A program made the translations under genes and the position numbers. The notes below the pieces were generated by a model. The model saw nothing but the letters and a program-made list of their open reading frames with translations. It made no database searches and was not told the DNA's origin. From Aquabacterium commune (GTDB taxonomy: Bacteria; Pseudomonadota; Gammaproteobacteria; Burkholderiales; Burkholderiaceae_C): 64,000 nt of DNA. Location of the stretch: assembly GCF_004362855.1 (NCBI RefSeq), contig NZ_SNXW01000006.1, positions 1 to 64,000 on the forward strand, read 5' to 3'. Below are positions 2,035-63,316 of this stretch, in pieces (position 1 is the first letter of the stretch; each line of letters starts with the position of its first letter).

Positions 2035-2058
2035 CGGGCACATTGAATCATGCGAGTC

Positions 2059-2086: not shown

Positions 2087-2179
2087 GACTGTCAAGTGGT
2101 CGAAGTATCTCTGAAAATCCACTTCGCCCTGGCATCAGTGCATTCACGCTCAATCCAATATGGAAGAGGATCGCAATCA

Positions 2180-4164: not shown

Positions 4165-5424
4165 TCAAGCCACGCGCCGTATAGGTTGCACATTCCAGGG
4201 GCGGCCAGTTTCGCAAGCCTCGATGAAGGCCGCCCATTTTTCCAAGGCTTGACGGCGCTCGGGGATCTCCTCGCGCACATCGTAGACAGCCTCCATGCCT
4301 TTGAGCGCGTGATTGAGTGCAATCTCGGTGATGTCGTTGGGGATCCCCATGTTTCGCATATGCCCCTTTGCCGTGCTACGGGTGTCGTGAGGGGTAAAGC
4401 GCCGCACGTCGATGTCGCCGCGATCAAAGGCCCGGGTGATTGCCGCCCAAAGCGTCGTTTTTCCCACATGAGTGTCACCCACACGTTTGCGGCGTCGATC
4501 CGTTCTGGCAGGCAAAACCCAAGGGGAGTCACCGGAGAGGCACTGGAGACTTTTGAACCACTCTGCAACTGTTGGTGTGATGGGGACCAAAAAGCCTGTG
4601 CGCGTTTTGACCGATTCGGCCGGCACCCACCAAGTACCAAGTTCGAAGTCGATGTGCTCCCATCTGGCTTTGGCCAGTTCGATGGACCGAACACAGGTGG
4701 CCAGCAAGATGCGGAAGGCCAGGCCGTTTTCAACGCCAATGTCGCTGATGTCCTTCAGGAGCGCACGCAGTTCGTCCTCGGCCAGCATCACGCGCTTGCG
4801 AATGGGTGGGCGTGCGCCCATCAAAGCAGTGAGGTCAATGCCCACGCATGGGTTCACATTGATCAGGCGCTTGCCGCACGCGTGTGCGAAAAGCAATTTC
4901 GCTGAAGTGAGCAAGCGTTTGCAGATCGTCCAGGAACGTTTGCTGGACTCAATCACGTGCACGATGTCAGCAGGGGTGACGTGGCGTACTTCCATGGAGC
5001 CCAACTTGGGTCCGATAATCTTGTCCAGATCCCACTTTCGGTAGTAGACAGTTCCCTCCGCCAATGGCGGTGTGGTCAGCTTCTTTTCCTTGTAGTCCGA
5101 GATCAACTCCCGCACTGTCCAAGCCATCTGGGTCCTCATTTTCAGGACCTTCTTGTCCGCGGCAGGATCTTTGCCTTGGTCTACATCAACGCGTCGCTCA
5201 CGAGCAAGCTTTCGGGCTGCAGCGAGGGTCAGGTCCGGATAGTTTCCAAGCGTGATTTCTTTGCGGCGCACACCAGAGACTCGGTAGCGCAGAACCCACG
5301 TGGCGGTTCCTGCACTCGACAAGGTGAAAGTCAAGCCATCGCCATCAGATCGCGCGATGGCGGCGCCCTTTGCGACCCAGCGTCGAATCTGTACATCGTC
5401 CAGCAAATTTCCCCGGCGTGCCAT
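4165..5424 (-). CDS. Tyrosine-family site-specific integrase with DUF4102-type arm domain
   Basis: Recombinase that integrates or excises a mobile element. The 419 residues contain an N-terminal arm-binding region (residues 1-95, ending YPDLTLAAARKLA), a core-binding domain (about 100-200) and the catalytic domain. Catalytic residues are visible: Arg246 (CVRSIEL), Lys273, His346 and Arg349 (HDTRST), His372 and Tyr381 (MEAVYD). Length and residues are intact. A strong GGAGGA ribosome site precedes the ATG. Iterated GGGTAGCTAG repeats lie directly upstream. It sits at the boundary between acquired genes and conserved chromosomal genes, as expected for the integrase of an island. No tRNA was recognised next to it. 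Confidence 0.92.
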   Translation of the reverse strand: MARRGNLLDDVQIRRWVAKGAAIARSDGDGLTFTLSSAGTATWVLRYRVSGVRRKEITLGNYPDLTLAAARKLARERRVDVDQGKDPAADKKVLKMRTQMAWTVRELISDYKEKKLTTPPLAEGTVYYRKWDLDKIIGPKLGSMEVRHVTPADIVHVIESSKRSWTICKRLLTSAKLLFAHACGKRLINVNPCVGIDLTALMGARPPIRKRVMLAEDELRALLKDISDIGVENGLAFRILLATCVRSIELAKARWEHIDFELGTWWVPAESVKTRTGFLVPITPTVAEWFKSLQCLSGDSPWVLPARTDRRRKRVGDTHVGKTTLWAAITRAFDRGDIDVRRFTPHDTRSTAKGHMRNMGIPNDITEIALNHALKGMEAVYDVREEIPERRQALEKWAAFIEACETGRPWNVQPIRRVA

Positions 5425-5439
5425 GGCTCGTCCTCCAAT

Positions 5440-5487
5440 GGGTAGCTAGGCGCAATTTTAGTCCGCTAGCTACCCAGCTAGCTACCC
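5440..5487. repeat. Iterated GGGTAGCTAG repeats upstream of the integrase
   Basis: GGGTAGCTAG at 5440-5449 is followed by its inverse CTAGCTACCC at 5466-5475 and again at 5478-5487. This gives two direct copies 12 bases apart and one inverted copy, all within 65 bases of the integrase start. Such arrays can be integrase arm sites or operators for integrase autoregulation. Which applies cannot be told from the sequence. Confidence 0.6.
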
Positions 5488-5533
5488 ATTTTTGTTGTGC
5501 TTCAGTGAGACGTGATGGGACGCTATGGGAGAA

Positions 5534-5630
5534 AAGCTGTTTGTTGACAACAGCTTATGGTCGTTGCGTGGGATGTGTTGAACTCCCTTGAAACGCTAAT
5601 TGAACTCGCAGGTGGCGAGTTTCAAGGGAG
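5534..5630. other. Inverted repeats in the integrase-chromosome junction (possible attachment region)
   Basis: AAGCTGTT (5534-5541) and AACAGCTT (5549-5556) flank a 7-base loop. Farther on, CTCCCTTGAAAC (5583-5594) pairs with GTTTCAAGGGAG (5619-5630), and the nested AACTCGC/GCGAGTT (5603-5609, 5615-5621) forms a competing inner hairpin. No T-run follows on either strand, so a simple terminator is unlikely. The position between integrase and the first conserved gene suggests an attachment or crossover region. No gene was seen in 5425-5676. Confidence 0.35.
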
Positions 5631-5676
5631 GCCTGCGGTGTGGCGGTGTGGGTTCAGGGGGGCGTCTGGCTGCGGA

Positions 5677-8039
<2,363 letters not shown>

Positions 8040-8043
<4 letters not shown>

Positions 8044-9017
8044 GCGGCCTCGGGCAGGAAGCGGGGGTCACAGAGGGTGGCCGTGTCGGGCAGGCGCTGC
8101 AGCAGCTTGGCATGCACCATGAGTTGCCCGACCGAGCGTGCCGAGGCGCTCAGCCCCGGGTTCTGGCCAGCCAGCCAACCTCGGTTCGCTGCCGCATCGG
8201 CCAGGCGGATGCCGCTGAAAGCCGCCAGCACGGCATCGGGTGCGATCTGTTGGTGCTGGGCCAGCAGGCGGGCGGCGTTGGCGGGGTTGCTGCGCAGGTG
8301 TTGCAGAGCCTGGAAATGGCCATCGAGCAGCTGACGGAGTTGTTCGCCCTGGTGGGGGGTGATCTGTGCGGACACCGCCAGCACATCGACGATCAGGCCG
8401 GGCAAGCGGCTGCTGTCCAGCAGGGGGCGGGCGCCGAGGGCACGCAGACGCGAGGCCATGGGCTCGAAGGTGATGACGGCGTCAACGCGCTGGGCGGTGT
8501 AGGCGGCGACGTGCTGGTCGGCCGTCAGGGGGACTTTGACCACGTCGGTGGGATGGAGCTGCGCTGCTTCGAGCGCCCGCGACAGCATCAAGGCGCCCAC
8601 GCCGGTGGCCTCCACCCCGATGCGCTTGCCGCGCAACGCGGTCAGCGAGTCGATGTCCTGGCGGGCCATCAGGACATCTGCGCCGGCAGATTCGTCGAAC
8701 ACCAGCGCAGCGCGCACGTCCAGCCCGCCCTCGCGGGCCAGCAGCAATTCGTCGAGGGTGAGGGCGGCAGCGGCCACTTCGCCGTTGACCAGCGCCATCA
8801 TGCTGGCGGTGTTGGAGGGGAATTCCAGCAGCCGCACCGCGGATTCGGGCACATGACCCAGGTCTTGCGCCAGAAAGAACGGCGCGTAGCCGATCCAGCC
8901 GTTGAGGGCCACGCGCAAGGCGGGCGCGGCGGCGGTGCAAGCGGCCAGTCCGCCCAGTGGTGTCAACCACCGGCAACCGGCCCCGGCGCCTCCCAGCAAC
9001 AGGTCTCGTCGATTCAT
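8040..9017 (-). CDS. NMT1/SsuA-like solute-binding lipoprotein
   Basis: Periplasmic binding protein of 325 residues, of the type used for sulfonates, nitrate or thiamine precursors. The start at MNRRDLLLGG is chosen because GGGAGGG lies upstream and the N-terminus then gives a twin-arginine-like signal and a lipobox (GLAAC, Cys near 28). The body begins ALRVALNGWIGYAPFFLAQ, typical of this family, and includes GKRIGVEATG. No ABC permease or ATPase is adjacent; instead the stop overlaps the start of a hybrid sensor kinase. The protein therefore probably serves as a ligand-capturing partner of the kinase rather than a transporter subunit. The ligand is unknown. An in-frame ATG 57 bases upstream (9074) is less likely. 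Confidence 0.8.
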
Positions 9018-9144
9018 GTGTCGCGCTTTGCCCTCCCGGTCGCGGCAAGCGCGCTGTGGGCCCTGTTTGTTCACATGGCGTGATTGTTACACCCCCGGTG
9101 GGGTTTTTCCATGTCGGTTGGCACTGAGAAATGGCGGCACACAA

Positions 9145-9162
9145 CCCTTTTGCGCAAAAGGG
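9145..9162. promoter_or_regulatory. Perfect 18-bp palindrome, candidate operator
   Basis: CCCTTTTGCGCAAAAGGG is a perfect dyad without spacer. It lies between the divergent solute-binding/kinase genes and the DUF4331 cluster, 96 bases before the DUF4331 ATG at 9258. Uninterrupted dyads of this size are typical of dimeric-repressor sites. No T-run follows, so it is not a terminator. The regulator is not identifiable. Confidence 0.45.
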
Positions 9163-9257
9163 CATCCGGCCAGGCATCCGACGCGGCTTGGGCTGCGTAC
9201 AGGAAGCAAGCGGTGCCGTGTTGCAGCCGCCTTAGCCCACACACAAAAGGACCCACC

Positions 9258-10910
9258 ATGCCGACGATGATCCGTTTTGCCACCCGCACCGCCCTTGCTG
9301 CGGCAGCCGTCGCCACTTGCGCGGCGTTGTCCCCTGCCTGGGCCTCCAGCCACCGTGAGGCGCCGTTCATCACCACCAGCCCGAAGGTCGATGGCACGGA
9401 CTTCTACATGTTCATGAGCTACGAGTCGGGCCGCACCGATTACGTCACGCTGATTGCCAACTACCAGCCGCTGCAAGACGCCTACGGTGGCCCCAACTAC
9501 TTCAAGCTCGATCCGAACGCGCTGTACGAAATCCACATCGACAACAACGGTGACGCGGTGGAGGACCTGACCTTCCAGTTCCGCTTCAACAACACCTTGG
9601 CCAACGCAGGCAAGGGCGTGGAGTTGAACATCGGTGGTTCGATGGTGGCCATCCCGCTGACGCAGGCCGGTGCGGTGACATCGGTGTCGGATGCCAACCT
9701 CAACGTCGCGGAAACCTACGGCGTGACCGTGGTGCGCGGTGACCGCCGCAAGGGCAGCCGCGGCGCGCTGAGCAAGGCCTCGGGCGGCGCCACCACCTTC
9801 CAGAAGCCGGTGGACTACATCGGCGACAAGACCTTGGGCGACTCGGCTGCGTACGAGGCCTACGCAGCGCAGCACGTGCACGCGGTCAACATCCCCGGCT
9901 GCGCGATGCCGGCCAAGGTCTTCGTCGGCCAGCGTCAGGAGGGCTTTGCCGTCAACCTCGGCCCGATCTTCGACCTGGTCAACGCCACGCCGGGCCAGAT
10001 CCTGGACCCCTCGCTGAAAAACGCCTTCGCCGCCAACTCCATCCAGGACAAGAACGTCACGACGATGGCCCTGGAGGTGCACAAGTCCTGTCTGACCGCC
10101 GGATCGGACACGGTGGTGGGCGGCTGGACCACGGCCAGCGTGCGCCAGGCCCGCCTGATGGCCGCGGCCCCGGCCTCCGGCTACCAGACCTCATCCAAGG
10201 ACGGTGGCGCCTGGGTGCAGGTCTCGCGCCTGGGCAACCCGCTGGTCAACGAGGTCGTCATCGGCCTGCGCGACAAGGACAAGTTCAACACCTCCAAGCC
10301 CAAGGACGACCTGCAGTTCGCGACCTATGTGACGAACCCGACGTTGCCCGCGCTGCTGGGCCTGGTCCTGGCGGGTGACACGGCCGCGCTGGCGCCCACC
10401 AACTTCCCGCGCACCGACCTGGTTGCCACCTTCCTGACGGGCATCAACGGCCTGAACCGCCCCGCCGCGCTGTCGTCGCCCTCGGACCAGCTGCGCCTGA
10501 ACACCGGCGTGCCCGCCGTGGCCCTGGCCAACCAGAACCGCCTGGGCGCTGCTGGCTCCATCCTGGCTGCAGGCTCGGTGTCGGGTGCAGCTGACTTGGC
10601 GGGCTTCCCCAACGGCCGCCGCCCCAAGGACGACGTGGTGGACATCGCCCTGGTGGCCACCATCGGCGGCCTGTGCGCCATCAACGAAGGCATCGACCTG
10701 GGCTTGAGCTCGGTGGTGGTGCCCAAGGTCGGTACGCTGACCTCGACCTGCACGACCGCTTCGCTGACGACCCTGGCCAAGGCAACGGCCCCCAACGGCC
10801 TGCCCAACGCCGCCAACGTCCACGACGGCGCCGACCAGGCCGCGGTGACCTTCCTCACCCGCTTCCCGTACCTGAACACGCCGAACTCCGGCTCGACCCC
10901 CCAGCAGTGA
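9258..10910 (+). CDS. Exported DUF4331-domain protein
   Basis: Protein of 550 residues with a Sec-type signal peptide (about residues 1-31, cut after SPAWA). The mature start SSHREAPFITTSPKVDGTDF is the hallmark of DUF4331 proteins, whose function is unknown. The rest is beta-rich, with two Cys-containing segments (IPGCAMP, GLCAINEG). The ATG at 9258 is chosen because it gives a clean signal peptide; the frame is open for 58 codons upstream without one. It heads a cluster with a lipoprotein, a helical-repeat protein and a HupE/UreJ-like membrane protein on the same strand. A periplasmic or surface role, perhaps metal-related given the last gene, is inference. Confidence 0.85.
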   Translation: MPTMIRFATRTALAAAAVATCAALSPAWASSHREAPFITTSPKVDGTDFYMFMSYESGRTDYVTLIANYQPLQDAYGGPNYFKLDPNALYEIHIDNNGDAVEDLTFQFRFNNTLANAGKGVELNIGGSMVAIPLTQAGAVTSVSDANLNVAETYGVTVVRGDRRKGSRGALSKASGGATTFQKPVDYIGDKTLGDSAAYEAYAAQHVHAVNIPGCAMPAKVFVGQRQEGFAVNLGPIFDLVNATPGQILDPSLKNAFAANSIQDKNVTTMALEVHKSCLTAGSDTVVGGWTTASVRQARLMAAAPASGYQTSSKDGGAWVQVSRLGNPLVNEVVIGLRDKDKFNTSKPKDDLQFATYVTNPTLPALLGLVLAGDTAALAPTNFPRTDLVATFLTGINGLNRPAALSSPSDQLRLNTGVPAVALANQNRLGAAGSILAAGSVSGAADLAGFPNGRRPKDDVVDIALVATIGGLCAINEGIDLGLSSVVVPKVGTLTSTCTTASLTTLAKATAPNGLPNAANVHDGADQAAVTFLTRFPYLNTPNSGSTPQQ

Positions 10911-11280: not shown

Positions 11281-12501
11281 ATGCCCATGCACCGATGCTT
11301 GTTGGATGTGCGCCCCGCCTCATGGCGATCGATGGCGCTGGCGTGGGCCGCAGGCTGCGTGCTGCTGAGCGGTGTGGCGCAGGCCGCCGGTCCGTGGGTT
11401 CCCGCCCGCGACAACGAGGTGGTCGAGGTGCTGCGCGAGCGTTCCTTGACTGCGCAAGAGAAGGTCTGGCGCGCACTGCGTGCCCAGGCCCGCGCCCAGC
11501 CTGGCGACGTGACGCTCGCTGTGGCGGTGGCCTCTCAGGCCATCCAGTGGTCGCGCCAGGATGGCGACCCGCGTTGGTTGGGGCAGGCGCAGGCTGCGCT
11601 CGGACACTGGTGGACCCAGGCCACGCCGCCGCCCGAAGTGCGCCTGCTGCGCGCCACGGTGCTGCAAAGCACCCACGATTTCGATGCCGCCCTGCGCGAC
11701 CTGCGGGCCTTGGCGCAGCTGCCTGCCACTGCCTTGCTGCCGGCGCAGCGCGCACAAGCCTGGTTGACGCTGGCGTCGGTGCTGCAGGTGACGGCCCAGT
11801 ACGACGAGGCCCAGCGCGCGTGCGAGGCGCTGGCGCAGGTGCCACATCCAGTGCCATCGCCCTGGCTGTCGCAAGCCTGCAGCCTGGAGTTGCGCAGCCA
11901 CCGCGGCGAAGCCGACGCGGCACAGCGCGGGCTGACGCAGCTTGCGCAGCAGGCACCGCGCGAGTGGTCGGGCCTGGTTCAGCTGATCCGGGCCGAACTG
12001 GCCGAGCGCCTGAGCCAGCCCGACCAGGCTGCGTTGTTGTACCAGGCGCTGCTGTTGCGCCAGAGCGATGCCTACACCGAAGGCGCTTATGCCGATTTGT
12101 TGCTCGACCAGGGGCGTGCGGCCGAGGTGCTCTCCCTGCTCAAGGGCCGGGAGCGCAATGACGCGCTGCTGCTGCGCCTGGCCGAGGCCGGTGCGGCGGT
12201 GAACGACCCCGCCAACGCCCAGCGCGTGGCCGCCTTGCGTGCCCGCTTTGCTGCCGCCCGTGAGCGGGGTGACAGCGTCCACCGGCGCGAAGAAGCCCGC
12301 TTCACCCTGCGCCTGCTGCGTCAGCCTGCCCAGGCCCTCCAGCTGGCGCAGCGCAACTGGGCGGTTCAGAAAGAACCGGCCGATGCCCGCATCCTGCTGG
12401 AGGCCGCCCGCGCGGCAGGCGTTGCGCAGCCTGTCACCGACATGCGCGCCTTCATGCAGCGCTGGGGCTGGACCGACCGCCGCCTGGAGGTGCTGCTGTG
12501 A
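11281..12501 (+). CDS. Exported TPR-like helical-repeat protein
   Basis: About 406 residues. An N-terminal signal peptide (ALAWAAGCVLLSGVAQA) is followed by an Ala/Leu/Gln-rich, almost wholly alpha-helical body with repeating pairs such as AQAWLTLASVLQVTAQYDEAQRAC and QPDQAALLYQALLLRQ, the spacing of tetratricopeptide-like repeats. No catalytic motif. Such proteins usually scaffold complexes, here in the periplasm. The start could also be 11287. The stop shares one base with the next ATG (12501), so the HupE/UreJ-like gene is probably translationally coupled and the two products may act together. Confidence 0.7.
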   Translation: MPMHRCLLDVRPASWRSMALAWAAGCVLLSGVAQAAGPWVPARDNEVVEVLRERSLTAQEKVWRALRAQARAQPGDVTLAVAVASQAIQWSRQDGDPRWLGQAQAALGHWWTQATPPPEVRLLRATVLQSTHDFDAALRDLRALAQLPATALLPAQRAQAWLTLASVLQVTAQYDEAQRACEALAQVPHPVPSPWLSQACSLELRSHRGEADAAQRGLTQLAQQAPREWSGLVQLIRAELAERLSQPDQAALLYQALLLRQSDAYTEGAYADLLLDQGRAAEVLSLLKGRERNDALLLRLAEAGAAVNDPANAQRVAALRARFAAARERGDSVHRREEARFTLRLLRQPAQALQLAQRNWAVQKEPADARILLEAARAAGVAQPVTDMRAFMQRWGWTDRRLEVLL

Positions 12502-13877
12502 TGTGGCGCGTCTTCACGGCCTTTGCCGTGCTCCTTCTGGCCTGGGCCATCCCGCTGACGGCGCAAGCCCACAAACCCAGCGACAGCTACCTCAAGCTGA
12601 CGGTGAGCGAAGCAGGCCGCGTGGGTGTGGACTGGCACGTGGCCCTGCGTGACCTCGACAACGAACTCGCGCTGGACGCCAACGACGATGGCCGCCTCAC
12701 CTGGGGCGAGGTTCGCAGCCGGTGGGCCGACATGCGCCGTTTCGTGCAGGCCCACTTGCGCCTGGTGCACGGTGGCGAGGCCTGCCTGCCCTTGCCGGAC
12801 GACGCCAAAGCCAACCCACCAGCGTTGATCGAGCACACCGACGGGCGCTACGCCGTGTTCGCGTGGTCTCAGCAATGCGAGGTGGCGCCGGGCAGCCCCT
12901 GGACGGGCGTGACGCTGGCCTACAGCCTGTTCGCGCTGACCGACCCGACCCACCGCGGCATCGTGCGCTGGCGCTTGCAGACGGCAGGCGGTGCGCCCCA
13001 GGAGATGGGCGTGGTGGTGATGGGTGCCAACCGGGCCAGCCATGCGCAGACCTGGCTTGCGCTGGCCCAGGCCGATGTGGCGGCGCCAGGTGGCAAGCCG
13101 GTGCCTGCTTCCGTGGACGCCCCCTCGGACGCCCAGCCTGGCGCCAAGGTCGCTTCAGCCCCTGCGATCGGTGTGGCCGCAGGCCCGCAGGCGGCTTCGT
13201 CCCGCGGTCTGTCGGCGTGGGATCAGGTCCAGCGCACCGTGCGCGATGGCATCGAGCACATCTCGGCAGGCACCGACCACATCCTGTTCCTGGTCCTGCT
13301 GTTGTTGGTGGCGGTGTGGCAGCGCCAGGCCACGCCCGACACGCGCAACCATGGGCGCCGGCCCATGGCCGATTGGTCGCCGCGTGGCCACTGGCGTGGC
13401 GCTTTGGGCGAAGTTTTGCGCCTGGTCACGGCATTCACGGTGGCGCACTCCATCACCTTGGGGCTGGCCGCGTTCGGCGTGCTCTCACCACCCTCGCGCT
13501 GGGTGGAGTCGCTGATCGCGCTCAGTGTGTTGGTGGCGGCGGTGGACAATCTCTGGCCGGTCTTGCGTGCACCGCGCTGGGCCGTGGTGTTCGGCTTTGG
13601 CCTGGTTCATGGCTTCGGCTTCGCAGGTGCGATGCAGGACTTGGGTTTGTCCGCCCAAGATCTCGCCTGGCCGCTGCTGGGCTTCAACCTCGGTGTCGAG
13701 TTGGGGCAGCTGGCACTGGTGGCCGCGGTGTTGCCCTTGTGCTTCGCCTTGCGCCGCACCGCCTTCTACCGCCTGGGCGTGGTGCTGCCGGGCTCGGTGG
13801 CCATCGGGCTGATGGCCTTGGTGTGGCTGGTCGAGCGCAGCACCGACCGCGTCATCCTGGGCTGGGGTGGCGGCTGA
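12501..13877 (+). CDS. HupE/UreJ-like membrane protein with periplasmic EF-hand domain
   Basis: 458 residues. A signal peptide (1-24) is followed by a long periplasmic domain (25-235) and a C-terminal membrane domain of about six segments. The membrane domain has HupE/UreJ hallmarks: GIEHISAGTDHILFL, AFTVAHSITLGLA, HGFGFAGAM and FNLGVELGQ, whose conserved His/Asp/Glu residues bind metal (nickel or cobalt) in that family. The periplasmic domain holds a canonical 12-residue EF-hand loop, Asp59 to Glu70 (DANDDGRLTWGE), with ligands at positions 1, 3, 5, 9 and 12, suggesting calcium binding. GTG 12498 is an alternative start. It is the last gene of the DUF4331 cluster. The transported ion is unknown. 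Confidence 0.82.
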   Translation: MWRVFTAFAVLLLAWAIPLTAQAHKPSDSYLKLTVSEAGRVGVDWHVALRDLDNELALDANDDGRLTWGEVRSRWADMRRFVQAHLRLVHGGEACLPLPDDAKANPPALIEHTDGRYAVFAWSQQCEVAPGSPWTGVTLAYSLFALTDPTHRGIVRWRLQTAGGAPQEMGVVVMGANRASHAQTWLALAQADVAAPGGKPVPASVDAPSDAQPGAKVASAPAIGVAAGPQAASSRGLSAWDQVQRTVRDGIEHISAGTDHILFLVLLLLVAVWQRQATPDTRNHGRRPMADWSPRGHWRGALGEVLRLVTAFTVAHSITLGLAAFGVLSPPSRWVESLIALSVLVAAVDNLWPVLRAPRWAVVFGFGLVHGFGFAGAMQDLGLSAQDLAWPLLGFNLGVELGQLALVAAVLPLCFALRRTAFYRLGVVLPGSVAIGLMALVWLVERSTDRVILGWGGG

Positions 13878-54272: not shown

Positions 54273-55679
54273 TCACTGTGCGCCCTCGCGGAACAACACC
54301 ACGCTCACGGTTTCGAACAGCACCAGCAGGTCCAGGAACAGCGAGTTGTTCTTCACGTAGTACAGGTCGTACTGGTGCTTGTGCAGCGCGTCCTCGACCG
54401 ATGCACCGTAGGCGTAGCGCACCTGGGCCCAGCCCGTCACACCCGGCTTCACGCTGTGGCGCACGTCGTAGAAGGGCAGCTGCTCGCGCAGTTGGGCAAC
54501 GAACGTGGGGCGCTCCGGGCGCGGGCCCACCATGCTCATTTCACCCTTGAGCACGCTGAACAACTGGGGCAGTTCGTCGATGCGGGTCTTGCGGATGATC
54601 TTGCCAACGCGTGTCACGCGGGCGTCGTTCTTCTTGGCCCACACGGCCACGCCATCTTTTTCGGCGTCATTGCACATGCTGCGGAACTTCAGGCACATGA
54701 AACCCTTGCCACCCAAACCGACGCGCTCCTGGCTGTAAATCAGCGGGCCGTGGCTCTCCAGCTTGATGGCGATGGCCGTGATCAGCATCACCGGCGAGGT
54801 CAGCAGCAACAGGGTGCCCGAGGTGACGACGTCGAACATGCGCTTGACGATGATGCGAGCGCGGTCCTGCGCGAAGCCGCGGCCATAGACCAGGAAGCTG
54901 GCTTTCAGGCTGTCCACGGGCACTTCCCCGGTGGTCTGCTCGTAAAAAGCGGCGAGGTCCATCACGGGGATGCCCTGGATGCGGGCCTGCAGCAGCTGGT
55001 CCATCGGCACATTGCCGCCGCGTTGCTCCTTGACGGCCACGATGATCTGGTTGACATCGTGACGGCTCACGATGTCGTCGATAGAGGCTGCGCGAGGGAA
55101 GATGTTGAAGCGCTTGTCTTCGGCGGGGAGCACCGACTCGCCGGCGGGGTAGAAGCCCACCACCGAGTGGCTGCGCAGGCGGCGCGACTTCAGGTCGGCA
55201 GCCACGGCATGGGCTTCGTTGCCTGTGCCGATGATCAGCACGCGTTGTTGCACGAGCGAGCCGTTCCAGGCGGTCAGCAGGAGACCGCGCACCAGCACGA
55301 GGCCGACCATGAGGTAAACGATGGCAAAGCCCATCAGGTGGTGTGCCTGAGCGCCGTCCACAGACGTCTTGATGGCCAGTTGGTAAGCGATCGGTGCTGC
55401 GATCAGGCAGCCCAGCACGGCACGACCCAACTTGGCCCTGGCGGTTTTGCGGATCGCACCTTCGCGGTACACACCGACCAAGCCGCAATGCAGGGGGATC
55501 AGGAAGGCAAAGCCCAGACCTGCGCGAAGCGCCGTTGCCATGCCAAACGAACCTGCGTCACCAGAGAAGTGCGCAAGCGTCAGGGTGCCCAGCAGGATCG
55601 CCAGAAAGCTGGTGAGGCTGTCTGCGATCAACTCAGCCAAGGTGACCAGCGAGATGTGGTGCTGAAATACCCGGAACAT
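54273..55679 (-). CDS. EPS polyprenyl glycosylphosphotransferase, EpsB/WbaP-like
   Basis: Starts exopolysaccharide synthesis by transferring a sugar-1-phosphate to undecaprenyl phosphate. 468 residues: four to five N-terminal membrane helices (about 10-135), a Rossmann-like middle (VLIIGTGNEAHAVAADLKSR), and a C-terminal bacterial sugar-transferase domain (about 270-468) with KRMFDVVTSGTLLLLTSP, KFRSM, DELPQLFSVLKGEMSMVGPRPE and KPGVTGWAQV. This layout matches the TIGR03013-type transferase of XrtA/PEP-CTERM clusters. GAGAGG lies upstream of the ATG at 55679. A 383-base gap separates it from the rest of the EPS genes. Confidence 0.92.
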   Translation of the reverse strand: MFRVFQHHISLVTLAELIADSLTSFLAILLGTLTLAHFSGDAGSFGMATALRAGLGFAFLIPLHCGLVGVYREGAIRKTARAKLGRAVLGCLIAAPIAYQLAIKTSVDGAQAHHLMGFAIVYLMVGLVLVRGLLLTAWNGSLVQQRVLIIGTGNEAHAVAADLKSRRLRSHSVVGFYPAGESVLPAEDKRFNIFPRAASIDDIVSRHDVNQIIVAVKEQRGGNVPMDQLLQARIQGIPVMDLAAFYEQTTGEVPVDSLKASFLVYGRGFAQDRARIIVKRMFDVVTSGTLLLLTSPVMLITAIAIKLESHGPLIYSQERVGLGGKGFMCLKFRSMCNDAEKDGVAVWAKKNDARVTRVGKIIRKTRIDELPQLFSVLKGEMSMVGPRPERPTFVAQLREQLPFYDVRHSVKPGVTGWAQVRYAYGASVEDALHKHQYDLYYVKNNSLFLDLLVLFETVSVVLFREGAQ

Positions 55680-56062
55680 GTTTGGCCTCTCTGTGCCGGC
55701 CCTTGCAATGCGCAAGAGCTGCAACCGGTGATTCGGATTGGTAAGATTTTGTAATCCAGCCATTGTCAAGAAGATGGCCGTGTTCCAACATCCTTCGTTT
55801 GTGGGGTGCACCCTAAACTTTGGGGGATCCGCATGCCGCATCGCGAATTGCAGCCCATTGGCCATGGGAATAGCGGACAATGTCAGGTTGCATGGCGCAC
55901 GCACAAGCCACAAATCCATTGTGGAGGGGGCACCTTGGCTGTGCCCGTCGCGCAGGGTGTGGCTGTTACAAAGTGCCGTGAACCATTGAGCAGTCCTGGC
56001 GTTTGTTTGTGCAGCGCAGCGTGCTTGCCACGCCACTTGCTGCTGTCCCTGGGGCCCCTGCT
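55680..56062. other. Gene-free spacer inside the EPS cluster
   Basis: 383 bases with no supported gene; it is less GC-rich than its neighbours. It contains a sigma-54-like site (separately listed) and a weak TTGACA (minus, 55769-55764) about 85 bases before the sugar-transferase start, with no good -10 box. The length suggests an independent promoter or leader for the sugar-transferase gene. Confidence 0.5.
56016..56030 (-). promoter_or_regulatory. Candidate sigma-54 promoter for the EPS sugar transferase
   Basis: TGGCAAGCACGCTGC on the minus strand matches the -24/-12 consensus TGGCAC-N5-TTGC with GG and GC at the correct 10-base spacing; two positions deviate. It lies about 340 bases upstream of the sugar-transferase ATG. 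Clusters of the XrtA/PEP-CTERM type are often linked to the PrsK/PrsR system, whose regulator works with sigma-54. No enhancer site is recognised. Confidence 0.35.
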
Positions 56063-58237
56063 TCAGCTGGGCGTGACCATGGTGCGCGGCTGGCGCTGCT
56101 TCCACCAGGCGGCAAGGTGATCGGCCACGCGGCTGGCCGTCATGCCATCCCAGAACTTTGGCAGGCGGCCTTTTTTGCCACCGCCGCGGATGATTTCCGC
56201 CACAGCGCGGTGAATCAGGCTGCTGTTGCGCCCGACCGCGATGTTCGTGCCTTGCTCGACCGTGATGCGACGTTCCGTGTAGTTGTGCAGCGTCAGGCAA
56301 GGCACACCCAGGATGGTGGCCTCTTCCTGCACGGTGGACGAATCGGTGAGCACGCAGGCGGCGGTGCCGATCAGGCCCATCATTTTGAAGTAGGGCACGA
56401 TGGGCAGCAGCGCGATCTGGCTGCCAGGCGCGTCGCTGAGCAAGTGGTTCGACTGGATGAGCGAACGTGTGGTTTCGCTGGCCACCCAGATCAGCGGCAT
56501 GTCACGGCCGATTGATTTCAGGATGGCGGTGAGCTCCGCCAGGGCTTGCACCTGTTGCGATGGTCCCTGGCTCTGCAGATACACCACGCCGTAGCCTCGC
56601 CCTGCCTTGAGCAGTTCGGGCGACTGGTTGAACTGGCGCAGGGTGTACTTTGGCGGAGAGGCCTGCGGCAGCATGGCGCGCATGGTGTCCATCATGAGGT
56701 TGCCGGCAAACACGACGCGGTCGGCGGGGATGCCCTCGCGCGTGAGGTTGTCGTGCGCCACCCATTCGGAGGTCAACAGCAGGTCGGCCATGTGGTCGCA
56801 CATCATGGCGTTGATCTCTTGCGGGCGGCTGCGGTCGAAGCTGCGCAAGCCTGCTTCCAGGTGCAGGATGGGGATGCCCTGGCGGTGGGCGGCCAGGCTG
56901 GCGGCCATGGCAGCGTCGTCGCCGTTCTGAACGATCACGGCGGCGGGCCTGAACTCACCCAGGACGTGGTCCAGCTGGCGCATGGCGTCGGCGGTTTGGG
57001 CCACGGGCGTGCCAGCGGGCACACGCATCTGCACATCCGGTGCGCGCAGGCCCATGTGCTCGCACCAGTCGCTGGTGAGCTCGAACCGTCCGGGCGCATC
57101 GATCATCAGCCACTTGAGCGCGGGCAGGTCCTGGCGGCTGGCAAAGGCCTTTTGCAAGGCGGCGGCGCGGACGCAGCAGGTGCGCGAACTGGCGATCAGC
57201 AGCAAAAATGCCTGGTCCGTGTGGGCGTGGACCGTGGGCGCGAACAACTCGTTGCGGAACTGCGGCTGAGTTGGCAAGGGCAGCACGCTGTCTGTCAGCG
57301 TGGGCATGGACAGGTGCGACGGCAGACCCTGTTGCAGACCTGCCTGCATGCTGGTGGCTGTGACGTCGCTGGCCAGGTGGGCGGGTGTTGACCCCATCAC
57401 TGGCGGCGGACTGAGCGTGGCTTCGCCAATCTCGGCGCGGATTTCCAGCGCGATGCGCGCCACATCGGCCGCCGTGATCTCGTTGCCTTCGGCCAGGAAG
57501 GTGGCCAGCAGGATCCGGTTGCACAACAGGTTGATGCGGCGAGGGATGCCCGAGGTCCACTGGTAGATCTCGTCGAAGGCGTCGTCATCGAAATGCGGGC
57601 GATTGTCCCAGCCGACCTTGCGCAGGCGGTGCTCGATGTAGCTGCGCGTTTCCTCCCGGTCCATCGGCCCCAGGTGGTAGGACGCGATGACGCGCTGGCG
57701 CAACTGTTCCAGGCTGCGCGACAGCAGCATGTCGCGCAACTCGGGCTGACCGATCAGGAAGCTTTGCAGCAGCGCCTGGTTGCCGAACTGGAAGTTCGAC
57801 AGCATGCGCAGCTCTTCGATGGCGTCGCGGCTCAGATTCTGCGCCTCGTCCACGATGAGCACGGCGCGCTTGTTCTGCGTGGCCAGCAGCGTGAGGTAGG
57901 CCTCCAGGGTGGCTATCAGCTCGGCCTTGCTCTGGCCCTTGAGTGGCACGCCAAAGGCCGTGATGGCCGAGCGCAGCAGATCGCCTGCTTCCAGCTGGGT
58001 GCTGACCAACTGGGCTGCTACCACTTTCTCGTTGTCGATGTCGCTCAACAAGGTGCGCACCAGCGTGGTCTTGCCCGCGCCGATGTCACCCGTGACCACG
58101 ATGAAGCCTTCGGCCTGGTACAGACCGAATTTCAGGTAGGAGAGGGCGCTGCTGTGCCCCCGGCTGTCAAAGAAGAAGCTGGGGTCCGGGTTGAGCAGGA
58201 AGGGTGCGCCGGTGAGGCCGAAATACGACTCGTACAT
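56063..58237 (-). CDS. Fusion of XrtA-associated ExeA-like ATPase and WecB-like epimerase domain
   Basis: 724 residues. Residues 1-270 form an AAA ATPase typical of XrtA/PEP-CTERM clusters (TIGR03015-like): MYESYFGLTGAPF, Walker A GDIGAGKTT (50-58), Walker B LIVDEAQ (127-133). A Pro/Thr/Ser linker (275-340) leads to a domain like non-hydrolysing UDP-GlcNAc 2-epimerase: GDD (439-441), LHLEAGLRSFD (458-468, Glu461), PQEIN (Glu474), VQEE (636-639) and TERR (654-657). The HRxEN segment with the catalytic His of WecB is replaced by YLQSQG (553-558). It is one uninterrupted frame. Catalysis by the second domain is therefore doubtful; a sensory or structural role is possible. Confidence 0.85.
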   Translation of the reverse strand: MYESYFGLTGAPFLLNPDPSFFFDSRGHSSALSYLKFGLYQAEGFIVVTGDIGAGKTTLVRTLLSDIDNEKVVAAQLVSTQLEAGDLLRSAITAFGVPLKGQSKAELIATLEAYLTLLATQNKRAVLIVDEAQNLSRDAIEELRMLSNFQFGNQALLQSFLIGQPELRDMLLSRSLEQLRQRVIASYHLGPMDREETRSYIEHRLRKVGWDNRPHFDDDAFDEIYQWTSGIPRRINLLCNRILLATFLAEGNEITAADVARIALEIRAEIGEATLSPPPVMGSTPAHLASDVTATSMQAGLQQGLPSHLSMPTLTDSVLPLPTQPQFRNELFAPTVHAHTDQAFLLLIASSRTCCVRAAALQKAFASRQDLPALKWLMIDAPGRFELTSDWCEHMGLRAPDVQMRVPAGTPVAQTADAMRQLDHVLGEFRPAAVIVQNGDDAAMAASLAAHRQGIPILHLEAGLRSFDRSRPQEINAMMCDHMADLLLTSEWVAHDNLTREGIPADRVVFAGNLMMDTMRAMLPQASPPKYTLRQFNQSPELLKAGRGYGVVYLQSQGPSQQVQALAELTAILKSIGRDMPLIWVASETTRSLIQSNHLLSDAPGSQIALLPIVPYFKMMGLIGTAACVLTDSSTVQEEATILGVPCLTLHNYTERRITVEQGTNIAVGRNSSLIHRAVAEIIRGGGKKGRLPKFWDGMTASRVADHLAAWWKQRQPRTMVTPS

Positions 58238-58249: not shown

Positions 58250-59851
58250 TCAGAAGCGGTGTTCCAGGCCGGCGAACACGACGTTCTCCGTGATGGCTTC
58301 GCCAGAAGTGCTGATGACAGTGCGCTGGCGACGCAGGCCGCCGACAAGCTGTGTGCGTGGTGACAGCATCGAGCTCAGGCTCAAGCGCATGCCCGTCTCG
58401 CGCGAGGAGGTTGTTGTGCCCAAGAGGGTGTTCAGGATGCGGGCGCGGCTGATGCGCAGGCCCATGGTGAGTGTGGTCGAGGGCGTCATGCGGTGGTTGA
58501 TTTGCGTGTCCGCATACCGCTCTCGGGTTTCATTGCCGGGGCCAAGCAGGCTGGAGAAGGCGTCCCCTGCCAAAGGGCGCGACATGGTTTGTCCTGCGGA
58601 GACCAGCAGCACGCTTCGCGTGCCCATGAGGGCCGCACGAGCAACGGTGGCCTGTCGCACCTGTGCATTGAGGTCGTAGAGGTCGCGCGTTGAGCCCAAT
58701 TGCCGAGGCAGGTTGCGCTGCGTGATCATGTCGTTGACAGCTTTGCTGCGCTCTGCCTCGTTGGGGATGCGCGAAGTCAGCAAAGCGTCCAGCAGGGCCT
58801 GGGTTGAGCCCCCGGTGACCAGACCGTTGCCCACCGGGCTGGTGTAAGTGCTGATCTGGCGGTTGCTGCTCAACCCGAGAGACAGCATCGGCGTGCGGTG
58901 CGACGCTTCCGCTTCCCAACTCCGCCCGAAGAAGCGCTCTTCGACCAGTGCCTTGACCTGAGTGCGTTGGGACGGGCGCCATTCAAATTGTGCGCCTTTG
59001 ACCGTGTCGCGGAATTGCTGCAGCAGTGCCTGGTTGGACTCCCGACCCAGCACCAGACCGACTTCCAGTTCGGGACTCAAGGCGTAGAGGGCCGTGCCCT
59101 TGACCAAGCGTTGCACGTAGATGGATTGCGCCTGGCCATCGGCCTGGGTGTCCTGATAACGTGCGCTCAGGACGTAGCCTGCGCGACTGGGGCGGCGCGA
59201 GATGTTCAGGCTGGCACCGTTGGTGTTGGTGTTGGGGCGGTTGCTCAGCCCATCGCTGTTGGCGGTGGAGTGCAGTTGGGTGCGTTCCAGCCTTGCGCGC
59301 AACAGCGTTTGTGGATCCAGCGCGCGTTCCAGGAAGGGACTGACCTGCACGCGGGTGTTGGTGTAGGTGTCTGCCGTGCTGATGGACGCGGACTGTGCCG
59401 AGGTGAATTGAGACTTGACCTGATCAGCGGCAACGCTGGCGTCCAGTCCCCAGCCCTGACGGGCCACCTCGGTGTGCAATGCCAGACGCCCATTGGGCAG
59501 CAGCCTGTCCGTCTGCGTGTTGCCAAGGTAGTTGACCGACGAGAGCTGCATCTGGCCCGTCACCGTGCTGTTGGCGCCGCGGTATGCCAGGGACACCCCC
59601 GGGGAGATCGACACGATGGTGTCGCTCTGGCGACGGGAAGATGTTGTTTGCGTCGCGTTGTCAGAATGGCTGATCTGCGCCCCCAGGGTGGGGGTGAAGA
59701 TGGGGGCTGCTCCCTGGGGGGGCTGCGCGGCGGCTACCGCAGGTGTTTGTGCCTGGGTTTGTCCCTGTGCGTGCGCGCTGTAGGCCAGCACGATCACGCC
59801 GCAGGCCAGCCTGGCGGCTGTGCATCTGGCGTCACGGAGCGTAGTAGCCAT
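58250..59851 (-). CDS. XrtA/PEP-CTERM-system outer-membrane barrel protein (TIGR03016-like)
   Basis: 533 residues. A signal peptide (residues 5-29) and a Gln/Ala/Pro stretch are followed by a large beta-rich domain of alternating strands (GAQISHSDNATQTTSS, VSLAYRGANSTVTGQMQLSS, GYVLSARYQDTQADG), ending in VVFAGLEHRF with C-terminal Phe for outer-membrane insertion. TIGR03016-type proteins are found only with XrtA-linked EPS clusters; their role is thought to be export or anchoring of the polymer. The ATG at 59851 has GGGAG 8 bases upstream and overlaps the kinase gene by 20 bases. Confidence 0.85.
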   Translation of the reverse strand: MATTLRDARCTAARLACGVIVLAYSAHAQGQTQAQTPAVAAAQPPQGAAPIFTPTLGAQISHSDNATQTTSSRRQSDTIVSISPGVSLAYRGANSTVTGQMQLSSVNYLGNTQTDRLLPNGRLALHTEVARQGWGLDASVAADQVKSQFTSAQSASISTADTYTNTRVQVSPFLERALDPQTLLRARLERTQLHSTANSDGLSNRPNTNTNGASLNISRRPSRAGYVLSARYQDTQADGQAQSIYVQRLVKGTALYALSPELEVGLVLGRESNQALLQQFRDTVKGAQFEWRPSQRTQVKALVEERFFGRSWEAEASHRTPMLSLGLSSNRQISTYTSPVGNGLVTGGSTQALLDALLTSRIPNEAERSKAVNDMITQRNLPRQLGSTRDLYDLNAQVRQATVARAALMGTRSVLLVSAGQTMSRPLAGDAFSSLLGPGNETRERYADTQINHRMTPSTTLTMGLRISRARILNTLLGTTTSSRETGMRLSLSSMLSPRTQLVGGLRRQRTVISTSGEAITENVVFAGLEHRF

Positions 59852-60752
59852 ATGCATTGCTCCCTTTGGGGCCCCGGTATTTGTTGAGCATGGACAGCAC
59901 GACTGGGTGGCTTTCCACTGTGGCAAAGGCCTGCTTGATGGTGTTGATCGGAGTCTGGTTGGCTTCAACGACCATGACGACCTGCCCCATGTGTGATGCC
60001 AGCACCCGCGATTCGGTCGTGGACAGCAAGGGCGGCGTGTCAAAAATCACCACCCGGTCCGAGTACTTGCTGGCCAACTCTTGCAAGAGTTTGTCCATGT
60101 TGTCGCTGGCCAGCAGCTCTGTGGAGCGCGAACTCGCCGTGCCCGCGGGCAGCAAGGTGAGCTTGGGAATGTTGGTGCGCAGCAGGACGTCGGTGAGTTG
60201 AGTCTGGGATGAGTCCAGCAAGTCCAGAAGGCCTTTGGCTGCAGTCACACCCAGGCGCTCCAGCGCCGAGGGGCGCAGCACATCGGCTTCGACCAGCAGC
60301 ACGGTGTGGTCCAGTTCCATGGCGATGCTGACAGCCAGGTTCAATGCTGTTTGGGTTTTGCCCTCGCTGGGCATCGCACTGGTCACCATGATGAGGTTGG
60401 CGCGGTCAGGGCGCATCCCAGCCTGTCCGCGCAAGTTTTCCAGCAAAGGCCGTTTGACGATGCGGAACTCTTCCTCGAGCTGCGACCGCGGTTGCCCGGG
60501 GACCAGCAAGCCAGCGCGGCGCATGCGCGCCAGATCGACCGTGATGTCCCTGCTGCGGCGGTCATCGGGCTGTCCCAGTGCGTGGGCTTGCGTCGGCAAG
60601 GGAAGGGGCGTCGCCCGCGACTCTGCTGCGTTCGTCGCCGGTGTGGCTTGCGTGCCAAGCGCACTGGACGCTGTCTGGATGTCCGACTGCACGTCGACGC
60701 CAGCGCGGCGCAATTGTTCGAGCCTTTTGGCGGCTTGTTCGATCGTGTTCAT
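59832..60752 (-). CDS. XrtA-associated bacterial tyrosine autokinase
   Basis: 306 residues. A disordered N-terminus (1-90) precedes a P-loop kinase domain: SAMPSEGKTQTALNLA (Walker A, 125-140), VLLVEADVLRPSALERLG (Walker A'), VVIFDTPPLLST (Walker B), and a short C-terminal tyrosine cluster (NAYGYYAP) for autophosphorylation. It pairs with the Wzz-like protein encoded just upstream, together controlling chain length. GAGG lies 5 bases before the ATG at 60752, which follows the wzz-like stop by 7 bases. Confidence 0.92.
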   Translation of the reverse strand: MNTIEQAAKRLEQLRRAGVDVQSDIQTASSALGTQATPATNAAESRATPLPLPTQAHALGQPDDRRSRDITVDLARMRRAGLLVPGQPRSQLEEEFRIVKRPLLENLRGQAGMRPDRANLIMVTSAMPSEGKTQTALNLAVSIAMELDHTVLLVEADVLRPSALERLGVTAAKGLLDLLDSSQTQLTDVLLRTNIPKLTLLPAGTASSRSTELLASDNMDKLLQELASKYSDRVVIFDTPPLLSTTESRVLASHMGQVVMVVEANQTPINTIKQAFATVESHPVVLSMLNKYRGPKGSNAYGYYAP

Positions 60753-60759
60753 GCGCACC

Positions 60760-62304
60760 TCAGGACAGCCACTGTTGTTTGACGACGAGCAGCCAGGTCA
60801 TGTTGACCAGGGCGAACAAGCCGCAAGCGATCAGGAAATTCCGGCGATCCCGGCCGACATCGACGGTCATCTCCGGGCTCAGCACCATGGACACGCTGCC
60901 CAGCACCGGCCGTCCGCCGATCTCGCGCAACTGGCGCGCATCCTGGACGGTCGGAAAAACTTGCGTCATGGCGAAAGCCACACCCAAGCCTGCGCCCAGT
61001 GCTGCCAGCACGCCCAGCACGGCAACCATCATGCGGCTGGGTTTGGCGGGTGTTGGCGACACCCGCGGAGGCTCCACCACGCGAAACTCGGCCACTTTGG
61101 TGGTCAGGTCGATTTTTTCGCCGAGTGACGCTGATTCGCGGCGTGCCACCAATTGCTCATAGTTCTTGCGAACGATGTCGTAGTCGCGGTTGAGTTGGGC
61201 CAATTCCGCTTCGACCTGCGGCATTTTGCCGGCCATGGCACGGGCCTGGTCCAGCTGACCTTGCTGCGCGCCAAGCTGTCCGCGCAGGGATGCCACCTTG
61301 GCCTCTGCTTCGGCCAGCGCCACGCGGATGCGCTGGAACACCGGGCTGGTCGGGGCTGGTGCTCTGCCACTGGCCTTGCGGGATTCCTGCTCGGTGCGAC
61401 GCTGCTGCTCCAACTGCGCAATGGTGCGTCGGGCCGCCACCACGTCAGGGTGTTGGTCGGTGTAGCGGCGCAGCAGGTCGTCCAACAGGCGGCGCTGTGC
61501 ATCCAGTCGCGACTCCGTCTCGGTCTGCTGTGCGCCTGCGCCTGCCATCATGGCCTCTGGCGGGATGGTGGGGTCTTCGGTGGAGAGTTCCCGGCGCAAG
61601 GCGTCGCGCGAGCGCTCTGCAGCCTGCAACTCCACGCGCAGGCGGTTGACCTCGTCGGTTCCACTGGAGATGCGGCCGAAGAAGTCGGTGTTTGACGTGC
61701 CGGTCAGGCCGAAATTGCGCAGCTTGAATTCCTTGACCCGGTTTTCCGATGCGCTCAGCTTTTCCTCGTAGGACCTGATCTGCTCGTCCAGGAAGCGGCG
61801 GGCCTGCTCCGAGTCGCGCTGCTTGTCGGTCACACCGGACGACACGAACAGCGACACCAGTTCGCCCACGATGATCTGCGCGCGCTGGGGGTTGATGTCC
61901 CGGTAAGTGATGGAAAACAGGTTGGCGTCGCCGCTGGGCGCCACCTTGATTTCCTTCGTCAGCCTGTCGATGGTGCGGTCTCGGTCCACTTCACTGAGGT
62001 TGTTCAGGCCGGCGCGGGGTGATTTGATGAGCTGCTCCACGTTGGGGCGGCTGATCAGCGTGCGCGCCAGCATGCGCACCTGTTGGTCCACATCGGGTTG
62101 GAAGGCGAGGCCACTCATCAGCGGCTTGAGCACCGTCTGGGTGTCCACGAACACCTTGGCCGAAGCCTCGTAGCGGTCGCGGATGACCAAGGTCACGGCT
62201 GCCATGGCCATCACGGCGACAACCCAGGCGGCGGCCATGCCGATCCAGCGTCGCTGCCACATGGCCACGAGCACGCCGGAGACTTGTCGGAGGAGATCGT
62301 CCAT
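60760..62304 (-). CDS. XrtA-type polysaccharide chain-length determinant (Wzz-like)
   Basis: 514 residues. Two membrane helices near the ends (about 20-40 and 425-445) bracket a long periplasmic coiled-coil region (about 150-380; RRFLDEQIRSYEEKLSASENRVKEF, LRGQLGAQQGQLDQARAMAG). The N-terminal Wzz motif YEASAKVFVDTQTVLKPLMSGLAF and the C-terminal PxxP-type FRVVEPPRVSPTPAKPS near the second helix are present. It sets EPS chain length with the adjacent tyrosine kinase. It matches the TIGR03007 subtype found with exosortase systems. Confidence 0.92.
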   Translation of the reverse strand: MDDLLRQVSGVLVAMWQRRWIGMAAAWVVAVMAMAAVTLVIRDRYEASAKVFVDTQTVLKPLMSGLAFQPDVDQQVRMLARTLISRPNVEQLIKSPRAGLNNLSEVDRDRTIDRLTKEIKVAPSGDANLFSITYRDINPQRAQIIVGELVSLFVSSGVTDKQRDSEQARRFLDEQIRSYEEKLSASENRVKEFKLRNFGLTGTSNTDFFGRISSGTDEVNRLRVELQAAERSRDALRRELSTEDPTIPPEAMMAGAGAQQTETESRLDAQRRLLDDLLRRYTDQHPDVVAARRTIAQLEQQRRTEQESRKASGRAPAPTSPVFQRIRVALAEAEAKVASLRGQLGAQQGQLDQARAMAGKMPQVEAELAQLNRDYDIVRKNYEQLVARRESASLGEKIDLTTKVAEFRVVEPPRVSPTPAKPSRMMVAVLGVLAALGAGLGVAFAMTQVFPTVQDARQLREIGGRPVLGSVSMVLSPEMTVDVGRDRRNFLIACGLFALVNMTWLLVVKQQWLS

Positions 62305-62366: not shown

Positions 62367-63005
62367 TCAGAACCAGCTCTGCGGGATGATGAGGATGTCA
62401 CCGGGCTTCATGTCCACGTTGGCCGAAATGTCGCCGCGACGCAGCAAGTCTTTGATCCGCACGCTGTACTGCTTGCTGTTCTCTGAACCGCGCACCAGCA
62501 CGGCATTGTTGCCGTCGGCAAAATCAGTGAGCCCACCGACCTGGATCATCACGTCCAGCAGCGTCATGTTCTGGCGGAACGCCACAGCCTGGGGTTTGGC
62601 TGCCTCACCCACGATGCGGACCTGAGCAGAGGTCTCGCCGAGGGCGCGGTTGACCACCACGGTGACCACGGGCTCGCGGATGTATTTGCCCAATGCCGCT
62701 TCGATCTGGCGCGAGAGGTCGTCAGGGCGACGGCCCGCTGCTGGCAGATTTTCCACCAGTGGCAAGGAAATCTTGCCATCAGGGCGGACAGTGACGGTGG
62801 CCGACAGGTCGGGGTTGCGCCAGACCACCACGGAGAGTTCGTCGAGCGCACCGATCTGGTAGCCCTGGGTTTTGTCATCTGCTGCGACACGCTGCGGCGC
62901 GGGCGGCAGATTGAAGGTGCTGCCGCACCCGGTGGCCAGCAAGGTTGCGCACAGGGCCAGCAAAACGCCAGCACGGCCGATGATTTTGCGAGTGGTGAAA
63001 GTCAT
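62367..63005 (-). CDS. EPS export lipoprotein, Wza-like (XrtA type)
   Basis: 212 residues. A signal peptide with lipobox (LLATGC, near residue 27) leads to a polysaccharide-export domain (PES; YQIGALDELSVVVWRNPDLSATVTVRPDGKISLPLVENL) and a SLBB-like domain (AQVRIVGEAAKPQAVAFRQNMTLLDVMIQVGGLTDFADGN). It is shorter than full Wza (about 380), as usual for the TIGR03027 XrtA-linked form, so the outer-membrane passage may need the barrel protein. It is the first gene of the minus-strand EPS group. Confidence 0.92.
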   Translation of the reverse strand: MTFTTRKIIGRAGVLLALCATLLATGCGSTFNLPPAPQRVAADDKTQGYQIGALDELSVVVWRNPDLSATVTVRPDGKISLPLVENLPAAGRRPDDLSRQIEAALGKYIREPVVTVVVNRALGETSAQVRIVGEAAKPQAVAFRQNMTLLDVMIQVGGLTDFADGNNAVLVRGSENSKQYSVRIKDLLRRGDISANVDMKPGDILIIPQSWF

Positions 63006-63316
63006 AGGGTCTTCTTTCGGCAGTTCTGCGGATTTCCGAAGTTCGGTGGCCTTGGCGCAATCGGCTGAGCCGGTGCAGCCATTTCGATGGGAAAACTGGT
63101 CTGACATCATGCGCCAGTTTCATGACGTGATCTGATTCGGGAGAAACAAGCGTGGCGCGTGAACGCCAGGGGGGCGCCTCCCGCCTCCAGCATACCGAAC
63201 TCGCCCCACGCGGTGTTAGAGTCCGAGACAGCTTATCCGGTGCTGCGTGAGGCAGGCTTGTGCGGCCTGCTTCATGAGCGACGGATGTCATGTCTGCGCA
63301 ACAATTTGGAATAGCG
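63006..63316. other. Gene-free divergent promoter region of the EPS cluster
   Basis: 311 bases between the Wza-like gene (minus) and the deacetylase-like gene (plus). No reading frame is convincing and no terminator is visible. Promoters for both directions must lie here, but no box stands out; no close sigma-54 match was found. An in-frame ATG at 63290 could shorten it. Confidence 0.4.

Follow-up and report, generated by a model that had tools for sequence, protein, structure and literature searches.

A gene of Aquabacterium commune encodes, in one frame, an exopolysaccharide-cluster ATPase followed by a domain derived from the UDP-sugar 2-epimerases, in which most of the residues required for epimerisation are replaced. 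The gene is proposed to have arisen from an adjacent ATPase gene and epimerase gene, the epimerase half having lost catalysis and its fold having been kept as a non-catalytic module of the ATPase, for which docking or dimerisation is the likeliest role; we assign this reading a probability of about 0.6.

The coordinates of the gene and its surroundings (Table 1) are positions in the window, i.e. the whole 64,000-nt stretch of A. commune (genome G000) that was analysed. The initial annotation had described a single uninterrupted 724-residue frame joining an ATPase to a WecB-like domain, and this was borne out. The frame starts 12 bp past the stop of the TIGR03016 gene, and the autokinase, the chain-length determinant and the export protein encoded upstream identify the setting as an XrtA-type exopolysaccharide cluster. 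Past the window (L115; G000:C6:62000-81000) the cluster continues with glycosyltransferases and an O-glycosylation-ligase-like protein, which match XrtA-system families below their cut-offs. A scan of positions 55500-56200 found neither a promoter nor a terminator, and hydropathy predicted no membrane span in the fused protein (top 19-residue mean 1.55). A second ATPase of the same genome (L002; G000:C11:69781-70644), 42% identical to the fused ATPase half, sits in a 628-codon frame without an epimerase match. A sequencing or assembly artefact was ruled out because the fusion recurs in 25 further genomes of the genus; 23 of these copies are of about full length and without an internal stop, one is cut by the contig end (G009) and one is gapped (G027).

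Table 1. Features of the fused gene and its neighbourhood in the 64,000-nt window.
Feature	Coordinates	Strand	Basis or remark
Whole fused gene, XrtA-type ATPase and pseudo-epimerase	56063..58237	-	724 aa, ATG start
ATPase domain, residues 1-270	57428..58237	-	TIGR03015 above cut-off; both Walker motifs intact (A, GDIGAGKTT; B, DEAQ); median dN/dS 0.057
Variable linker, residues 271-339	57221..57427	-	median dN/dS 0.49; low confidence in full-length model
Pseudo-epimerase domain, residues 340-724	56066..57220	-	PF02350; under TIGR00236 cut-off; top structure matches are 2-epimerases
G439, column of catalytic base Asp95	56921..56923	-	three alignments
D441, column of E. coli T97 and T. thermophilus D100	56915..56917	-	Asp in 51/58 fused proteins
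E461, Glu117 column, kept	56855..56857	-	three alignments
Q473, Glu131 column, lost	56819..56821	-	three alignments
Q555, His213 column, lost	56573..56575	-	three alignments
Downstream neighbour, EpsB_2-type sugar-phosphate transferase (TIGR03013)	54273..55679	-	383 bp after fused gene; start picked by inspection
Upstream neighbour ORF, TIGR03016 outer-membrane protein	58250..60043	-	model match covers frame residues 115-597
XrtA-associated tyrosine autokinase (TIGR03018)	59832..60758	-	family model
XrtA-system chain-length determinant (TIGR03007)	60760..62304	-	family model
XrtA-system exopolysaccharide export protein (TIGR03027)	62367..63110	-	family model

Residues 1-269 match TIGR03015 with 377.9 bits (cut-off 324.5) and residues 389-708 match PF02350 (Epimerase_2) with 198.2 bits (cut-off 30.6), the Epimerase_2 fold spanning about residues 340-710. 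Scores below the respective thresholds were obtained with the WecB equivalog TIGR00236 (156 bits against 210.15), the hydrolysing NeuC 2-epimerase model TIGR03568 (33.3 against 235.9 bits) and the GT-B glycosyltransferase model Glyco_trans_4_4 (25.1 bits against a gathering score of 29.7). The best structure matches of a model of the C-terminal domain (pLDDT 65.3) are 2-epimerases (4neq, VIA Z 18.6, rmsd 13.4 over 308 residues); as the Foldseek TM values among the matches listed are only 0.34-0.38, no residue distances were drawn from this model, and the full-length AlphaFold2 model (mean pLDDT 53.8) is too weak for the packing of the two halves. The cut-off sequence L072 was left out of both structure alignments and L066 out of the second. 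Walker motifs are retained in the fused relatives aligned, and another conserved ATPase motif is altered in the most diverged fused copies, L118 and L120. For annotation this is a warning, since Pfam confidently calls the fused half an epimerase, yet its active site is gone.

Catalytic columns were established with E. coli K-12 WecB as the reference by phmmer against solved structures, by MAFFT and by hhalign, the last comparing a profile of 22 fused sequences with one of 12 standalone sequences. All three assign D95, E117, E131 and H213 to G439, E461, Q473 and Q555, respectively, while K15 and R214 correspond to R357 and S556 in the alignment with E. coli WecB. Replacement of the HRxEN-type motif, as originally described, was thus confirmed at both the His213 and the Arg214 columns, also by the profile-profile alignment, and the alignment of the C-terminal half with WecB and the solved-structure sequences places no His in the catalytic position. 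A His shifted to a nearby position was ruled out, there being none between residues 496 and 597. The initial annotation also held that Asp441, Glu461 and Glu474 are kept, which stands for E461 only; D441 aligns with T97 and E474 with E132 in phmmer, MAFFT and hhalign, and both were therefore ruled out as catalytic residues, the Asp95 and Glu131 columns being occupied by G439 and Q473. The columns of the allosteric His (H246) and of the GG phosphate loop are changed as well, and neither residue of the allosteric Gln-His pair was found in the corresponding segment, where the register varies between alignments.

For E. coli WecB, the catalytic residues follow PMC10622841 and are discussed in PMC11464976, as far as the available text of each goes. 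According to the accessible part of the former, the D95N, E117Q and E131Q variants have an activity too weak to measure; the fused protein is naturally changed at two of these three sites (D95 and E131) in addition to the His. The same text reports that His213Asn slows the E. coli enzyme and does not abolish its activity (kcat 50-fold lower, KM 30-fold higher), and therefore loss of the His alone would be no proof of inactivity and the changes at D95 and E131 weigh more. The residues of the second domain, and not the missing His alone, strongly support the earlier proposal that it has ceased to epimerise, and we infer from them that the domain is very probably catalytically dead.

This loss extends to the relatives. 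The D/E/E/H tetrad is intact in none of 58 fused and in all 14 standalone proteins of a first set, and in 1 of 67 fused and 28 of 28 standalone proteins (E. coli WecB included) of an enlarged set, the sets being non-random, with fused proteins taken from the strongest long-frame matches and many standalone ones chosen as neighbours of an ATPase. The 58 fused proteins comprise 21 from Aquabacterium and 37 others, among which the diverged L024 (G010) of the same genus is counted; the tetrad counts omit cut or gapped sequences (L012, L026), second copies of loci (L025, L029, L049) and named records whose species were for the most part represented by other sequences (L052-L073). The sole intact fused protein among the 67 is L143 (G519), a separate fusion in another family. 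Over 40 different combinations of residues occupy the four former catalytic columns across the 67 fused proteins. A His occurs in the H213 column in three Aquabacterium proteins (L009, L010, L014) and in L118 of another genus, all four without D95, E131 and the following Arg, and the column therefore drifts.

In trees of the epimerase domain rooted with E. coli WecB, all degenerate fusions form one branch (100% SH-aLRT) and thus have one origin in the domain tree; their sister is a clade of intact standalone epimerases, the union being supported at 98% and 99%. Five of the six members of this sister clade in the enlarged tree, from which nine close Aquabacterium rows were left out, lie beside an unfused ATPase gene, and the sixth (L112) is on a different contig from the ATPase of its genome. 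The domain of L143 falls among the standalone epimerases, away from the degenerate branch, and L143 is therefore probably an independent fusion; the protein may be a bifunctional enzyme. The ATPase tree has one change between the fused and unfused states without two distant outgroup rows and two changes with them. The trees are quick ones with long branches, joins of a kind about which treekit warns.

In a survey for the same fusion, 26 of the 42 Aquabacterium genomes proved to carry the fused gene; in six an ATPase of this type is encoded separately, and the remaining ten lack both forms. Of 399 genomes from the family, 41, belonging to 15 genera (Aquabacterium and 14 others), have a fused copy in the DNA examined, including each of G133, G167, G260 and G329. 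The expectation that TIGR03015 ATPases are normally separate proteins holds for most sampled genomes outside the lineage, but the fusion is frequent inside the family. Named genomes, searched with two peptide patterns only, yielded 22 loci, of which 11 are labelled Aquabacterium and 7 Burkholderiales bacterium. A cultured strain, Aquabacterium parvum B6 (L062), also has the fused gene. Among 369 genomes of the class, the three full-length matches with internal stops (G513, G468, G473) each turned out to be a pair of adjacent genes, and the 20 stretches examined from the class search contained one true ATPase-epimerase fusion, that of G519. The two best candidates per genome were scored in the family search and the three best in the class search, so that weaker copies can be missed.

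Several loci depart from the common arrangement. Three hold two ATPases, namely L118 (G167; 751-3012 and 8020-8952), L119 (G329; 596-2647 and 6475-7491) and L120 (G260; 11493-13736 and 8440-9324), and in each an ATPase of about 300 aa that lacks an epimerase part accompanies a highly diverged fused paralogue, whose ATPase is 41-42% identical to that of the A. commune fused protein. A second fused copy in G150 (L083; 8392-10617) directly follows a formate dehydrogenase alpha-subunit gene, and neither it nor the related copies L079, L080 and L082 have any of the five exopolysaccharide neighbours in the stretch examined. The fused copy of L090 (G258; 8408-10558) adjoins exopolysaccharide genes of the EpsE/EpsF type and not of the XrtA type. 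TIGR03015-like ATPases with a C-terminal OmpA domain were observed in L156 (4287-6509) and L157 (2813-5068), stop-to-stop frames whose true lengths are unsure, and long-frame TIGR03015-like ATPases with a C-terminal part lacking a clear Pfam match, again as stop-to-stop frames, in L144, L145, L146, L155 and L158.

Selection was examined as pairwise dN/dS (NG86) between Aquabacterium fused genes at least 75% identical with dS of 0.05-2, giving 58-66 non-independent pairs per region. Median values are 0.057 in the ATPase and 0.49 in the linker and, along the second domain, 0.20 in residues 340-430, 0.065 in the epimerase core (431-535), 0.28 in the former His loop (536-610) and 0.045 in the C-lobe (611-700). 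The pseudo-epimerase domain is therefore under purifying selection in Aquabacterium, its core and C-lobe to about the same extent as the ATPase, with a relaxed His loop. That the catalytic residues are lost and yet the domain is conserved in relatives suggests its retention for a non-catalytic purpose.

Three other explanations were weighed. The domain could be functionless and decaying, as the very fast divergence in some genera (seen as long branches) and a 299-aa ATPase frame of G104 with no epimerase part in the stretch examined might indicate. This is very improbable and was already disfavoured, since the low dN/dS of the Aquabacterium core and C-lobe rules out a pseudogene, no stop lies within any genus copy listed and the fusion is present in 15 genera. 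Continued enzymatic activity of the domain, with its GT-B fold turned to a different UDP-sugar reaction, would agree with the kept fold, the acid E461 and the strongly conserved set of residues in Aquabacterium; it is improbable in view of the many combinations found in the former catalytic columns, the pocket columns, which vary most outside Aquabacterium, and the Glyco_trans_4_4 score.

The initial annotation suggested that the second domain may bind a nucleotide sugar and couple its supply to the ATPase, as a sensor that would recognise UDP or a UDP-sugar and gate ATPase activity by precursor supply. For Aquabacterium this appears rather unlikely, though the core and C-lobe are strongly constrained and R352, S633 and E639 are kept in 19, 20 and 21 of 21 proteins, respectively; these occupy the columns of R10, S290 and E296 of E. 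coli, and the available text of PMC10622841 describes UDP contacts for the equivalent residues of T. thermophilus. Against it, the columns of the GG phosphate loop, D95, E131, H213, R214 and the allosteric His are changed, and the other 37 fused proteins keep the three UDP-contact columns in only 5, 16 and 21 cases. Outside Aquabacterium the 16 pocket columns are moreover the least conserved (mean entropy 2.68, compared with 2.30 in all other columns, with the register of 383 and 384 uncertain). As the UDP-contact columns fail in these 37 proteins, sugar sensing is unlikely to operate family-wide.

The best reading of the pseudo-epimerase is a non-catalytic docking, dimerising or regulatory module. 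An exopolysaccharide ATPase gene and a UDP-sugar 2-epimerase gene lying side by side, as they do in related bacteria, would have become one frame, and the epimerase half would then have lost catalysis and retained its fold. The domain may now serve the ATPase, whose motifs are intact, as a module. Most likely it would provide a surface for docking or dimerisation that keeps the ATPase within the machinery of polysaccharide assembly, a legacy of an earlier partnership between epimerase and ATPase. For a protein-protein role of the domain, whether docking or dimeric, the odds appear about even. In the T. thermophilus epimerase, as described in the accessible part of PMC10622841, the dimer involves helices 70-88, 99-111 and 131-142 and a cross-dimer hydrogen bond between D100 and K111, with which D441 and R452 align (phmmer). 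At the D441 column, 51 of 58 fused proteins have Asp and 13 of 14 standalone proteins have Asn; R452 is Arg in all 21 Aquabacterium proteins and Arg or Lys in 23 of the 37 others (44 of 58 overall), and a helix begins at residue 441 in both weak models (pLDDT 53.8 and 65.3). Special conservation of the whole dimer interface was rejected, as the conservation of the dimer helices does not exceed that of randomly placed blocks (of 5000 random triples, 830 were as low in the other fused proteins and 2781 in Aquabacterium); the dimer idea therefore rests on the two residues and on analogy. In 24 of the 26 fused genus genomes, some of which are incomplete assemblies, no further Epimerase_2 protein was found at E 1e-8. 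The persistence of E461 and of the three UDP-contact columns in Aquabacterium, which docking does not need, speaks against this role.

The fused gene was also compared with the occurrence of XrtA (TIGR03109). The best of three matches in the A. commune genome scores 164.3 bits, below the cut-off of 208 for XrtA, and other exosortase-like proteins and 26 PEP-CTERM matches (E up to 0.1) are present. Within the genus, XrtA is above the cut-off in 6 of 42 genomes (G006, G017, G024, G029, G032, G035), exactly the six with an unfused ATPase, and in none of the 26 fused genomes or the 10 with neither gene. Among the genomes classed in the family sample, XrtA is present in 3 of the 41 with a fused gene and in 94 of the 100 with an unfused one (Fisher's p about 1.7e-24, a value that ignores kinship and is not to be read as a probability, incomplete assemblies being able to hide XrtA); of 151 genomes that gave a match, 10 are left out, and four XrtA-positive genomes (G102, G307, G331, G412) belong to neither class. 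The three XrtA-positive fused genomes are all of genus g122, with XrtA on a different contig from the fused gene. This near exclusion suggests a distinct type of cluster. Tentatively, the lineage-wide pseudo-epimerase ATPase may mark an XrtA-less exopolysaccharide cluster type in which the exosortase-coupled, epimerase-using system was given up and the dead epimerase kept, either as the piece connecting the ATPase to the polysaccharide machine or as a gate controlled by UDP-sugars, with duplicates later reused, e.g. beside formate dehydrogenase genes.

No paper describing an epimerase, active or not, in fusion with a TIGR03015 ATPase turned up in a search of the available PMC literature; the available part of PMC4886054 contains no such fusion, and a term search found neither 'ATPase' nor 'epimerase' in the accessible main text of the 2006 PEP-CTERM paper (PMC1569441) or in the accessible text of the Aquincola floc paper (PMC9850573). 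Each of the two domains is already known, and many of the genomes examined hold the gene pair. A fused partner that keeps its fold under selection and is stripped of catalysis is a natural clue to what the TIGR03015 ATPase touches. Docking, sensing and catalysis can be told apart by experiment, since intact epimerases are available both beside an unfused ATPase and in a separate fusion, and the degenerate ones have decayed to several degrees.

Compared with known systems, the protein resembles the TIGR03015 (ExeA/GspA-like) ATPases in its score above the curated cut-off, its intact Walker A and B motifs and its neighbours (TIGR03007, TIGR03013, TIGR03016, TIGR03018 and TIGR03027); it differs in that the unfused ATPases examined have frames of roughly 300-460 aa, to which it adds a 385-residue epimerase-derived half, and in that the A. 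commune genome lacks an XrtA above the cut-off. With the non-hydrolysing UDP-GlcNAc 2-epimerases WecB/MnaA it shares the fold and the E117 column, and it is 38% identical to the standalone epimerases over 376 columns of the profile alignment, whereas D95, E131, H213 and R214 are replaced, the allosteric residues were not found and the TIGR00236 score is below the cut-off. Other genomes of the class with adjacent ATPase and epimerase genes (e.g. G057, G170, G175, G426, G513) have the same genes in the same order, but as separate genes, with the epimerase tetrad intact in every one examined. L143 of G519 (4887-7106) has the same domain order in one frame of 740 aa, with an intact DEEH tetrad.
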